DNA of 38,737 nucleotides, taken from positions 1 to 38,737 of the forward strand of contig NJBH01000036.1 in assembly GCA_005223125.1 (NCBI GenBank), in the 5' to 3' direction. Source of the stretch: Promethearchaeota archaeon Loki_b32 (GTDB taxonomy: Archaea; Asgardarchaeota; Lokiarchaeia; Sigyniarchaeales; SOKP01). The notes below the pieces were generated by a model, which was not told the origin of the DNA, made no database searches, and saw nothing but the letters and a program-made list of their open reading frames with translations. Within the stretch, counting starts at the first letter, position 1. Every line of letters begins with the position of its first letter. Shown here one piece after another: positions 1,408 to 38,737 of the stretch. The position numbers and the translations under genes were made by a program.

Positions 1408-1607
1408 ATGACAGAATTTAAAAGAGTAAAGTGTCCTCAATGTGGCAATGAAAATCCACGTAAGCTTCATGAGGAAAACGACAGGAATAATGTGCTTTAT
1501 TACAGTATAGGTAAAGCTAGTTCAGCCTACCGCTGAAGCAGGGCACTCCTGTTTATGCTAAGAATATGAAATGCGGCGGATGTGGCAATATTTTCAAAAA
1601 GAATTAA
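1408..1607 (+). CDS. small zinc-ribbon protein, gene split by a 29-nt intron
   Basis: The gene is readable only as two exons, 1408-1508 and 1538-1607. Exon 1 begins MTEFKRVKCPQCGNENP and runs to VLYYS; exon 2 gives QGTPVYAKN, then KCGGCGNIFKKN and TAA at 1605-1607. The two parts are in different frames. Removing 1509-1537 (29 nt, 2 modulo 3) joins them as YYS-M-QGTPVY, a 56-residue protein with two CxxC knuckles (CPQC, CGGC) that make one complete zinc ribbon. Without removal, exon 1 reads into TGA at 1534-1536. No homologue could be searched, so the function is unknown; a nucleic-acid or protein-binding zinc ribbon is the likely class. The intron is described separately. Confidence 0.75.
1509..1537 (+). 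other. 29-nt bulge-helix-bulge mRNA intron in the zinc-ribbon gene
   Basis: The segment can be folded as an archaeal splicing-endonuclease substrate. Exon nucleotides CAGT (1503-1506) pair with GCTG (1532-1535), one pair being T-G, as the 4-bp central helix. The 5' bulge is ATA (1507-1509, cut after the second base). The 3' bulge is AAG (1536-1538, cut after the second base). Inside, GGTA (1510-1513) pairs with TACC (1528-1531). An outer GTGC/GCAC pairing (1492-1495 with 1543-1546) is possible across an internal loop. Cutting at these bases gives an ATG codon at the joint and restores the frame. The geometry is seen in sequence; splicing itself is inferred. Confidence 0.72.
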
Positions 1608-2370: not shown

Positions 2371-3291
2371 TTACACAGAATTAGCTAAAATTAATGATGG
2401 TTTTGTAAAAATATCTGAAAATTTATTCCAAAACTCTTCTATATCCCATATCTCCTGCTTTTTATATATAGAAGATAATTCCAGAAAAACTTGTTTTATT
2501 ATTAAAGATTGAAAATATGTAATCTTAGGCGCAATAAGCGATAACATATAATCTTTACTTCCACCTCTAAAAGATTTGTCAAGATAAGAATCAAAAAATA
2601 CGTATGACATAATATTAAAGTTTTGTACATTTATCAAAAGACCTTCTGCACGTGTTATATAATCTTGACCATATATAGAAGAAATTACATCGTAGAGCTG
2701 ACTACCAATTTTATCGAGTGGAAAGTCTGATTCAATATCTTTAGGGAAATAATTTTCTAATTTTGGCCCTATTACATCATCCCAAACTACTTCCATTAAT
2801 ACTATTAGATCTTTTTGTTCCTTATAAATAATTTTTTTCTCACTTTCATATGAGGCATAAATCTCATTAATTTTTTTATTTATTAAGTCGGTATTTTTGC
2901 TACGTTTAATTTTACCAGCAATTGTAGCCAATAAATCATCTTCATTAATAGGTTTAGTGAGATAATCATCCGCTCCAAGCATCTTCCCTAACCGAATATC
3001 TTCGGGAGAATCAAGAGCAGACAAAAATATGAAGGGTACATGACAATAGGTTGGGTTATTAGAAACCGCATCAAAAAAGTCATACCCATTCATTTCTGGC
3101 ATCATAATATCACTAATAATGAGATCAGGGCAATCTTTTAGCTCCGAAAGAACTTTTAGCTCCGAAAGAACTTTTAGCCCCTCTTTTCCGTTGTTTGCTG
3201 TAATAACTTGGCACTCGTTAAATTCTAATGTAATTTTAAGATATTTTAAGATATTTGGATCATCCTCGACTATAAGTATTAAGGGTTTCAT
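2371..3291 (-). CDS. response regulator: REC domain plus longin-like C-terminal domain
   Basis: Residues 3-125 are a receiver domain with the acidic pocket VEDD (8-11), phospho-acceptor Asp61 in IISDIMMPEMNG, and Lys113 in YLTKPI. After a helical linker, residues about 160-300 form a second domain starting VVWDDVIGPKLENYFP. The 'DDxxGPK...YP' opening resembles longin/roadblock-like sensor domains in archaeal proteins (my inference, not verified). There is no DNA-binding domain. An 18-bp perfect tandem duplication adds LKVLSE a second time just before the phospho-acceptor strand. The gene is divergent from the histidine kinase at 3442, so the two are probably a cognate pair. Confidence 0.85.
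   Translation of the reverse strand: MKPLILIVEDDPNILKYLKITLEFNECQVITANNGKEGLKVLSELKVLSELKDCPDLIISDIMMPEMNGYDFFDAVSNNPTYCHVPFIFLSALDSPEDIRLGKMLGADDYLTKPINEDDLLATIAGKIKRSKNTDLINKKINEIYASYESEKKIIYKEQKDLIVLMEVVWDDVIGPKLENYFPKDIESDFPLDKIGSQLYDVISSIYGQDYITRAEGLLINVQNFNIMSYVFFDSYLDKSFRGGSKDYMLSLIAPKITYFQSLIIKQVFLELSSIYKKQEIWDIEEFWNKFSDIFTKPSLILANSV
3141..3176. repeat. 18-bp tandem duplication inside the receiver domain
   Basis: The unit AGCTCCGAAAGAACTTTT occurs twice in perfect succession on the plus strand. The following AGCCCC suggests the end of a third, diverged copy. In the protein it duplicates LKVLSE within the receiver domain, lengthening the loop before the strand that carries Asp61. Being a multiple of three, it keeps the frame. 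Identical copies imply a recent event or an unstable site. Confidence 0.9.
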
Positions 3292-12337: not shown

Positions 12338-12860
12338 GTGAGTGAAAAAGGAAAAGTGGTCGTAAAAGCTCTTGTAACAGGGGGCAGTGCCAGTGGTGGA
12401 CCCCCGATTGGCCCTGCTGTTGGTCCTACAGGCATAAACGAAAATCGTCTCGATTTTTGATGCATACATTAAAGACGTAGTCGATGAGATCAACAAGCAG
12501 ACAACAGTTTTCAGAGGCCTAACAGTACCAGTCAGAATTGAATGTGATCCAGAAACAAAGCAATTCGAAATTTTTATTGAAACACCTTCTACAGCATCAT
12601 TACTATTAAAAGAAGTTGGAGTTGAAAAAGGGAGTTCAGTATGTTCAGATGAGAAAATTGGTAATTTAACACTTGACCAAGTTCAAAATGTAGTTGAAAC
12701 AAAACGAGAAAAATTCTTAGATAAAACATATAAAACTGCTTTAAAAACTGTTTTAGGAACAGCTCTATCCGTAGGTTTGACAGTTGAAGGAGAAGATCCA
12801 AGAGTAATTCAAGAAAGAATTAATAATGGAGATTATGATGAAAAAATAAGGGGTGACTAG
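12338..12860 (+). CDS. rpl11: ribosomal protein L11 (uL11), gene split by a 28-nt intron
   Basis: Exon 1 (12338-12437) starts with GTG and encodes MSEKGKVVVKALVTGG, then GPPIGPAVGPTGI. Exon 2 (12466-12860) gives KDVVDEINKQT, then FRGLTVPVRIECDPETKQFE. The exons are in different frames. Removing 12438-12465 joins them as GPTGIN-I-KDVVDEIN, exactly the spacing of archaeal L11 (GPLGVN-x-xxVVxEIN). The spliced product is 164 aa, normal for archaeal L11. L11 forms the base of the ribosomal stalk with L10 and L12, encoded just downstream. Without splicing the frame ends at TGA 12458-12460 after about 40 residues, which would lose an essential protein. Confidence 0.92.
12438..12465 (+). other. 28-nt bulge-helix-bulge intron in the L11 gene
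   Basis: Exon bases GCAT (12432-12435) pair with intron bases ATGC (12460-12463) as the 4-bp central helix. The 5' bulge is AAA (12436-12438) and the 3' bulge is ATA (12464-12466), each cut after its second base. Directly inside the 5' bulge is a 9-bp hairpin, CGAAAATCG with CGATTTTTG and a TCT loop, one pair being G-T. The predicted joint reads GGC ATA AAC ATT AAA, restoring the family sequence. The outer exon helix is weak. Geometry and frame restoration are independent and agree on the same two cut sites. Confidence 0.88.
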
Positions 12861-28735: not shown

Positions 28736-29641
28736 TTAATTTTTTCTACAATTTAACCTAATCCTTTTCTTATAAAAGCTATTCTGGTAATTATCTAACA
28801 TTTCGTTAAATAATTTGGCTCCTAAATATAATTTATGATTACCTTTATATGAATAAATCTTATTTTTTATATTGAATTTTTCAGAAATTTGTAATAGAAA
28901 TTTTTTACTACCAGATGTAATTCTAGAAGTTCCTGTTGTGCCATCTCCATCAAAATATCCAAGAAGAAATGCTAAATATAATTCTCGACTTTTTAAAACA
29001 AGTAACTCAATATTTTTAGATTTTGTATTTCCAACAATAAATCTATTTTTTACCAACGTATCTCCTATTTTATCATTTGTAATTCTTATTCTAACAGTAT
29101 TTGATTTTTTGTATTATCTTTTATTCTTAGGATTGATACCTACGGCTACACAAAATTGATCTAAGATAATTTCATCATCTTTATTAATCTCTAAACCTAG
29201 CCTAAGGTTATTTCTTAATTGTGTAATATAACCATCAGCATATAAAAATCCAAGCCAATAAGCTTTTTCTTTATTATCTATATGTAAAAAGTAATCAAGT
29301 TTAATATTTGGATGAAATTTATAGATACGCTCATTTGTACTTCTAAGGCTATTTAAATTTTGATACTTTTCAATTAATTTAATTGCATTATCACATTTTT
29401 TAAGACATTTGCAGAATAAATTAGATTTGATTACCTCTAAATCTTCTAAACTTAATTGAAAATTAGGATTTCTTTTAGAGTTTTTATTAATACGATAAGC
29501 CAAATTAGGAGTATTATTTAAAATTTCACTTAGTTTCCTATAAGATAATACCTTATTACAATAATTATTAGGTGAAATTATTTTCTGTAATTCTAATTTT
29601 AACTCTTTTAAAAGCATTAAAGCTGTATAAGATTTATTCAT
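28736..29641 (-). pseudogene. LAGLIDADG homing endonuclease, interrupted by one stop codon
   Basis: One continuous frame contains two LAGLIDADG motifs, AYWLGFLYADGYI and AFLLGYFDGDGTT, the catalytic aspartates of a monomeric homing endonuclease. A single in-frame TAA (29114-29116) separates them. The remaining 300 codons are open, so decay is recent, or the stop is an error or suppressed. The N-terminal 110 residues are a basic helical region (YRKLSEILNN, NSKRNPNFQL) that could bind DNA. It lies 80 nt upstream of the intron-bearing tRNA-Sec on the same strand. It is not inside any intron I can recognise. Confidence 0.85.
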
Positions 29642-29824
29642 CGTCTTTTATTTCAGAAATAAATATTGTTTAAGAAAAGAAATCAATTGTTTATTTATAA
29701 ATAAATAGAGTTTATGGATTTATTTGCAATACAATTAATGGCAGTATACAATAATTAGATTTATATATCTTTTTAAAAAAAGTTTTTGGTTATAGATAAT
29801 GATGCTGTAAATATTCTAGGAAAA

Positions 29825-37727: not shown

Positions 37728-38100
37728 TTCCACTCGACAGAAAAGAAAAAGCGTGATCGTCTTAGTCGTGAAAACCGACTTCAAAAAGCCGAAGGCGCGC
37801 TGACCAATTTGATCGGAAAGCTCAACCACCGGAAGCTCAAGACCGAAAAACAAATACTGGAGCGCGTCGATATTAGACCAATATAAGGTAGAATCCTTCT
37901 ATCACATCAACCTTTTGAAGTTAAAACAGTCATACTCCGTGCAAGCGGGAAAAGGGAGACCCGGAAAGCACACCCGATACGTTACTCGACATAAGACGAT
38001 CTACTCCTTGGCGTGGACGAGGAACGACAGAGCACTCAAGAACGAGCAACGATTGGACGGCGTATTTCCACTGGTTTGCCCGTCCACTGTGGAATTTTTG
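37728..38100 (+). mobile_element. degenerate IS transposase fragment (IS1634/IS4-like)
   Basis: A first frame (37728-37886) encodes KKKRDRLSRENRLQKAEGAL and LKTEKQILERVDI, then stops. The +1-shifted frame continues from about 37882 with YKVESFYHINLLK, KGRPGKHTRYVT, YSLAWTRND and LDGVFPLV. The GRPG-(K/P)xT-x-Y and 'LDGxFPL' elements are typical of IS1634-like DDE transposases. The N-terminal catalytic part and the C-terminal helix are missing and the frame is broken, so it is a dead remnant. GC content is clearly higher than in the preceding 37 kb. Confidence 0.75.
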
Positions 38101-38225
38101 TTTGAATGCGATATTGACAGGTTTGTTGTACAGCTGTTTTCTGAAATTCTGATAGGTGGTGCCTGGAGTACATACGACCATTTTACCGCCGGGCCAGGAT
38201 ACAGCCATTCGTCTCTCACCCTCGG
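38101..38225. other. unassigned sequence between IS remnant and FG-GAP fragment
   Basis: No gene I can support. A minus-strand frame contains MAVSWPGGKMVVCTPGTTYQ without a recognisable family. This segment probably contains the junction between the IS fragment and the next gene. Confidence 0.4.
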
Positions 38226-38504
38226 CTAACCACTTGCCGGACTGAAAATATTGTTCCCGATATTTTCGAAAAAGTAGAGACCATTCGACGGCTTGTCGCT
38301 GGTGGAGACCAGCAGGTCGGTATCCCCATCCTGGTCCCAGTCAACCGGGATAGGATTGGCCCAGAGACCTACACCCAGATCAACGATCAGGTCGGGATTG
38401 TTATATTTTAAACGAATGGTTTCCGGACTGTCAATATCTTTAAACCTACCGGTAGAGGTACTGGATACAAAAGCCGTTACTAGCAATAAATAGTACAAAT
38501 TCAT
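38226..38504 (-). pseudogene. FG-GAP/VCBS-type secreted protein, truncated
   Basis: The 92-residue frame starts with a signal peptide (MNLYYLLLVTAFVSSTSTG). It continues with an integrin-like repeat: PIPVDWDQDGDTDLLVSTSD, the calcium-binding DxDxDGxxD loop, and LYFFENIGNN. Proteins of this type are usually several hundred residues long. Here the frame stops at TAG soon after the first repeat, at the border with the IS remnant. It lies 12 nt after the stop of the preceding partial gene. Style and base composition suggest a bacterial (Bacteroidota/Planctomycete-like) source, which is inference. Confidence 0.65.
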
Positions 38505-38516
38505 TTTTGTGGTGCT

Positions 38517-38737
38517 TTATTCAATAAATCCGTGATGACATGCCATATAATATGGTAGAAGATATATGGTCCCTTCATGTTCGGAATAACCGCTTCCTTC
38601 TGTTGCATCAAGGGCGAATCCATCACGATCCAGCCTCACATGACAACGTTCATCAATGGGCAGGGCTTTCCCGTCAACATGCCAGCCTGTTTTTTGCAGG
38701 TGCTCATCTGCCTGTTCAAATGTGTTATCCGGACGTT
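38517..38737 (-). CDS. partial CDS at window edge, function unknown
   Basis: A frame open from the window edge to TAA at 38517-38519 gives the last 72 residues of a protein. It includes EQADEHLQKTGWHVDGKALP, then RCHVRLDRDGFALDATEGSG and YLLPYYMACHHGFIE. The N-terminus is outside the window. I do not recognise the family; a secreted or carbohydrate-active enzyme is possible. Codon choice (GGC, CTG, CGT) differs from the AT-rich genes before 37.6 kb. Confidence 0.55.
   Translation of the reverse strand, partial: RPDNTFEQADEHLQKTGWHVDGKALPIDERCHVRLDRDGFALDATEGSGYSEHEGTIYLLPYYMACHHGFIE

Follow-up and report, generated by a model that had tools for sequence, protein, structure and literature searches.

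Archaeal pre-tRNAs contain BHB introns of strict (hBHBh') and relaxed (hBH/HBh') form, and a BHB-like intron also lies inside the coding sequence of the cbf5 pre-mRNA of Sulfolobales and Desulfurococcales, where it splits a codon (Watanabe 2002; Yokobori 2009, PMC2738675). The cbf5 intron is cut by EndA and is conserved in position, with lineage-specific loss; its gain and loss were described alongside mention of other, unconfirmed predictions (Yokobori 2009, PMC2738675). A 2020 study of Haloferax added a BHB intron in the 5'-UTR of HVO_1309, an EndA-processed mRNA, and named cbf5 as the only additional BHB intron of archaeal mRNA reported before its own case (PMC7714728). In the open-access PMC literature, crenarchaeal cbf5 was the only confirmed coding precedent that we found. 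The same literature yielded no report of mRNA introns in Asgard archaea, and priority is thus not established.

The intron described here interrupts a small zinc-ribbon (ZnR) gene in a Lokiarchaeia genome of 4.13 Mb (G000). It was studied in a stretch of 38,737 nt, contig C57, which we call the window. As in cbf5, the intron lies inside a coding gene, splits a codon, and combines a conserved position with lineage-specific loss. With the pre-tRNA introns it shares a 4-bp central helix, a 3-nt bulge on the 5' side and a cut after base 2, but it is located in an mRNA, and its outer helix and 3' bulge are relaxed. Processing by EndA is proposed as for HVO_1309, although the ZnR intron sits inside the reading frame rather than in the 5'-UTR. 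In contrast to the crenarchaeal cbf5 intron, the introns of Lokiarchaeia occur in several unrelated genes, with up to three per gene and lengths of 28-37 nt; by location they fall outside the cbf5 family, since they sit in other genes. In mechanism the ZnR intron resembles that of cbf5, yet both the lineage and the genes are new, and it is one of several. The features of the locus are as follows.

1408 to 1508, plus strand: ZnR exon 1, MTEFKRVKCPQCGNENPRKLHEENDRNNVLYYS followed by AT, bases 1-2 of a split Met codon; divergence biased towards third positions.
1503 to 1506, plus strand: exon-side strand of the central helix, CAGT, with its partner at 1532-1535; 4 bp in 9/10 genomes, covarying.
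1507 to 1509, plus strand: 5' bulge ATA, with inferred cleavage after 1508; the comparative boundary agrees with the BHB rule.
1509 to 1537, plus strand: BHB-type intron of 29 nt, AGGTAAAGCTAGTTCAGCCTACCGCTGAA; same site in 10 genomes, absent in about 30, with covarying stems.
1510 to 1513, plus strand: 5' strand of the inner helix, GGTA, with its partner TACC at 1528-1531; double changes in relatives (GC to AU, UA to AU, others).
1532 to 1535, plus strand: intron-side strand of the central helix, GCTG, pairing with CAGT.
1536 to 1538, plus strand: 3' segment AAG, relaxed and able to pair in part with exon 1; proposed cut after 1537.
1538 to 1607, plus strand: ZnR exon 2, the G of the Met codon, QGTPVYAKNMKCGGCGNIFKKN and the stop codon TAA; coding-type divergence.

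The ZnR gene is located downstream of a flavin-reductase-like (FlavRed) and a shikimate-kinase-like gene, and the order FlavRed-shikimate kinase-ZnR was found at all ten intron-bearing loci and at many intronless loci. The nearest named records that carry it are MAGs of Lokiarchaeota/Lokiarchaeia, among them CP070831 bin108 and JAHQWK01 ABR05. Without splicing, translation stops after 42 aa in G000, and after 38-44 aa across the ten intron-bearing genomes. The first-pass annotation had claimed that this broken small gene becomes a complete zinc ribbon of 56 aa when the 29 nt at 1509-1537 are removed, and splicing in silico confirmed this. The product is a CxxC...CxxC zinc ribbon (MTEFKRVKCPQCGNENPRKLHEENDRNNVLYYSMQGTPVYAKNMKCGGCGNIFKKN) with the junction peptide ...NNVLYYSMQGTPVYAK; the unspliced reading carries the intron-encoded sequence SIGKASSAYR. 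No Pfam or NCBIfam model matched the 56-aa protein above cut-off. The protein resembles the C-terminal zinc ribbon of the Lokiarchaeota gelsolin 2DGel (PDB 7whg; E = 4e-6), with which it shares the pattern CPxC..HE..DKxN..VY.K..KCGxCG, but it is free-standing rather than the C-terminal part of a gelsolin.

Orthologues were gathered by a search with the spliced protein, and were of two kinds, intron-bearing and continuous. Ten genomes of one Lokiarchaeia genus (G000, G002, G004, G006, G007, G010, G012, G013, G015 and G018) share an insert of 29 nt at precisely the same site; these genomes are kin, so that such counts do not represent independent events. About 30 orthologues had no insert and were continuous through YYSMQG(TPVY) or variants. 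The prediction of full-length homologues that run uninterrupted through a YYSMQGTPVY-like segment thereby held in all intronless orthologues, none of which contained extra residues matching the unspliced frame. Intronless genes were present within the same genus in six genomes (G003, G005, G008, G014, G016 and G017), and G001, G009 and G011 yielded no recognisable orthologue. The intronless homologues set the boundary of the intron, which the DNA allows at one place only in nine of the ten genomes, and in all ten splicing of the AT|G codon rebuilds a conserved or invariant Met. On an RpoB tree the intron was already present in the ancestor of the genus core and was lost exactly in the ancestor of G003, G016, G014 and G008 (path support 98-100), which implies one gain and one precise loss. 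Within the G000 genome the intron matched only itself; hence, there was no sign of a mobile repeat. A search of the window against Rfam gave no match. In another genus, g2 (G019 and G060), the ZnR gene has an insert at a second site; this insert contains an in-frame stop, and its fold is not a canonical BHB.

L059, about 3039 to 3070, and the same site in L060 on the minus strand: second-site ZnR insert of 30 nt, hairpin-forming, supported by protein homology and the in-frame stop.

Positions 1503-1538 read CAGT AT^A GGTA AAGCTAGTTCAGCC TACC GCTG AA^G. The central helix CAGT/GCTG comprises 4 bp, three Watson-Crick pairs and one T-G pair, and was complete in nine of the ten genomes, with 3/4 pairs in G015 (C-A mismatch). 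The inner helix GGTA/TACC, also noted in the first-pass annotation, was recovered with 4 bp. On both sides the splice site follows the second base of a 3-nt segment, and this coincides with the homologue-defined boundary in 9/10 genomes. In the alignment of the ten sequences, 98.2% of the cells in 11 pairs were paired; pairing fell to 52% or less when the partner strand was slid by 1-3 bases. Double-sided changes occurred in five of the 11 pairs, compared to 1.9 in shuffles and at most 1 in slid controls, and in four of the seven pairs of the inner helix. For instance, G006 has GAAA/TTTC in place of GGTA/TACC. Substitutions in the central helix were from C-G to U-A and from U-G to U-A, and in G012 and G010 Watson-Crick pairing is restored at the last or first pair of this helix.

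The same annotation had placed both ends in 3-nt bulges flanking the CAGT/GCTG helix. The helix and the 5' ATA bulge held, while the 3' AAG segment turned out to be relaxed. A strict hBHBh' motif has a clean 3' bulge and an abutting outer exon-exon helix; here the contiguous outer helix has 0 bp, and in the predicted fold the A and the G of this segment are able to pair with the exon, leaving a 1x1 loop. Partial pairing of AAG with the exon recurred in many of the folds. The motif is therefore of the relaxed type rather than strict hBHBh'. According to these models, the intron is strict at its 5' site, with a clean ATA bulge, and relaxed at its 3' site. Folding stability was modest and unremarkable (z = -1.55), and for four of the ten intron-bearing genomes (G013, G007, G006 and G010) the dominant predicted fold was not the BHB. 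Hence, the case rests on covariation and boundaries rather than on energy.

Both exons diverged in the manner of coding sequence. Pairwise differences among the ten genomes numbered 464 at third codon positions versus 105 and 112 at the other two in exon 1, and 403 versus 66 and 75 in exon 2. This bias implies that translation of exon 2 follows the spliced frame, and that the gene is not decaying.

G000 encodes two EndA-family genes and one RtcB. The EndA alpha protein (C18:184510) retains the Tyr, His and Lys positions, and its best PDB match is chain 3p1z_B, the catalytic subunit of EndA from Aeropyrum pernix (2e-35); the 3ajv chain has Ala at that His. The second EndA-family protein, a beta-like subunit (C2:78506), lacks the His. 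From these sequences the host EndA is predicted to be of the (alpha beta)2 type, which has been described as accepting relaxed BHB motifs (review, PMC6379350).

Further introns were found in L11 and RpoB. L11 introns were mapped among 36 genomes with protein guidance and without use of RNA structure. They measured 28-37 nt and occupied four positions; G015 has three such introns, and G010, G018 and G033 have two apiece. The suggestion that L11 in the window has the same architecture was borne out, as removal of its 28-nt intron restores GPTGINIKDVVDEIN. At site B of L11 most introns had 3/4 central pairs, and were relaxed at best. Taken together, 25 of the 30 mapped ZnR and L11 introns had a 4-bp central helix exactly at the splice boundary versus 1.2 expected from offset placements, a comparison that carries no formal probability as the sequences are related. 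In RpoB, introns whose removal restores DPGGYFIING and VVPDIPGF lie at two positions, and they conform to this geometry as well.

12438 to 12465, plus strand, window: L11 BHB intron of 28 nt, GCAT[AA^A]...ATGC[AT^A]; same site in G002, G004, G015, G016 and G033.
L111, about 1239 to 1269: RpoB intron of 31 nt in G018; CCTG/CAGG with 3-nt bulges.
L133, about 929 to 960, and the same site in L132 on the minus strand: RpoB intron of 32 nt in G021 and G029; CCTG/CAGG with 3-nt bulges.

The ZnR intron is raised above chance by the ten same-site inserts, the roughly 30 precise absences, the covariation, and the geometry in 25 of 30 introns. We assign a probability of about 0.93 to the interpretation that 1509-1537 is an archaeal BHB-type intron that interrupts a functional protein-coding gene, with EndA as the cutting enzyme and RtcB as the ligase that joins the exons. 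In the pre-mRNA, CAGT at the end of exon 1 would pair with GCTG at the 3' end of the intron, which would bring both exon-intron borders into unpaired or weakly paired 3-nt segments. The predicted (alpha beta)2 EndA would then cut after the second base of each segment, and RtcB would ligate the exons into an mRNA of 56 codons. We infer that cleavage and ligation occur, and that splicing precedes productive translation.

An alternative is that an RNA element is excised or used in another way, by a different nuclease and ligase or by recoding to a fused product. The enzymes of the proposed pathway are predicted by homology only, and departures from the strict BHB are seen at the relaxed 3' site, at L11 site B and at the second ZnR site of G019 and G060. 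EndA of the (alpha beta)2 type, however, has been reported to act on relaxed BHB motifs (PMC6379350), and a +/-1 frameshift can neither remove 29 nt nor restore the homologous residues. We therefore consider this alternative very improbable.

Translational bypassing, in which ribosomes hop over a hairpin in uncut RNA, is known from phage T4 gene 60 and the mitochondrial byp elements. A short, hairpin-forming insert of 29 nt with patchy presence in an otherwise intact gene would resemble such cases. However, hopping by whole codons cannot rebuild a Met from the split AT|G codon, as required in all ten genomes, and the L11 sites split codons too. Matching take-off and landing codons were not seen at the ZnR site, and the boundaries of 25 of the 30 introns fit EndA geometry. 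Bypassing is likewise considered very improbable. The frame is indeed broken in the DNA of metagenome-assembled genomes, but gene decay or a frame-breaking indel from assembly or sequencing error is scarcely credible given the same insert with compensatory changes in ten separately assembled genomes, the coding-type divergence of both exons, and the same type of insertion in the essential L11 and RpoB.

The first-pass annotation also suggested a general mRNA-intron system. The introns at four sites of L11 and two sites of RpoB support this suggestion, and indicate that mRNA splicing looks recurrent in the lineage rather than a lone accident; its reach is limited by six other conserved genes and cbf5, in which no such intron was seen in 19 genomes. 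PAN, DP2, RadA, L1, L10 and SecY showed no split matches of this kind among the matches listed, and cbf5 was open and intronless in 19 genomes of the genus. Likewise, about 97 comparable coding blocks of G000 revealed only the two introns of the window. Hence, mRNA introns in Lokiarchaeia look recurrent but not ubiquitous.

These surveys used homology-based split detection in place of an ab initio BHB scan. An ab initio scan combining BHB with frame restoration recovered the L11 intron but not the ZnR gene, with its short exons, and produced too many chance hits where genes meet. The pattern GGTA-N12-TACC was uninformative, with 24 matches in the genome versus 52 in the reversed control. ARAGORN predicted tRNA introns without a clear strict BHB. 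Two irregular DP2 genes were noted as well: in G013 the gene contains an open insert of 1.4 kb that is probably an intein (G013:C87:4358-5760), and in G011 it is split over two overlapping frames, by a frameshift error or another intron (G011:C102:5253-8779).

The L11 introns were far patchier than the ZnR intron. G019 and G033 are 97-99% identical in RpoB and downstream L11, yet their L11 introns differ (B versus A+D). Between G033 (L101) and G019 (L085), the first 120 bases of the L11 coding sequence are only about 80% identical. This local drop suggests that the intron-bearing segment was replaced by recombination. We consider it likely that Lokiarchaeia possess lineage-wide mRNA introns with fast turnover, spliced by EndA and RtcB, several per gene and in essential genes such as L11 and RpoB, which would come and go and also pass from one close relative to another, in part through replacement of segments as in G019 and G033.

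Lokiarchaeia are relatives of eukaryotes, and recurrent introns in ordinary Asgard genes, several of them in one gene, bear on what splicing of pre-mRNA and tolerance of introns were like around the time eukaryotes arose, as well as on the coupling of transcription and translation in Asgard archaea. Differences in gain and loss between near-identical genomes make the origin of the introns testable. For annotation, genes split by such introns look like broken pseudogenes to automatic pipelines.

Elsewhere in the window, GC content rises from about 0.31 to 0.51 at 37800-38737, where an FG-GAP-like frame lies at the end of the contig, possibly a chimeric assembly. At 28736-29647 on the minus strand, a LAGLIDADG-like homing endonuclease frame with an in-frame stop near 29114 adjoins a SepSecS-like gene.
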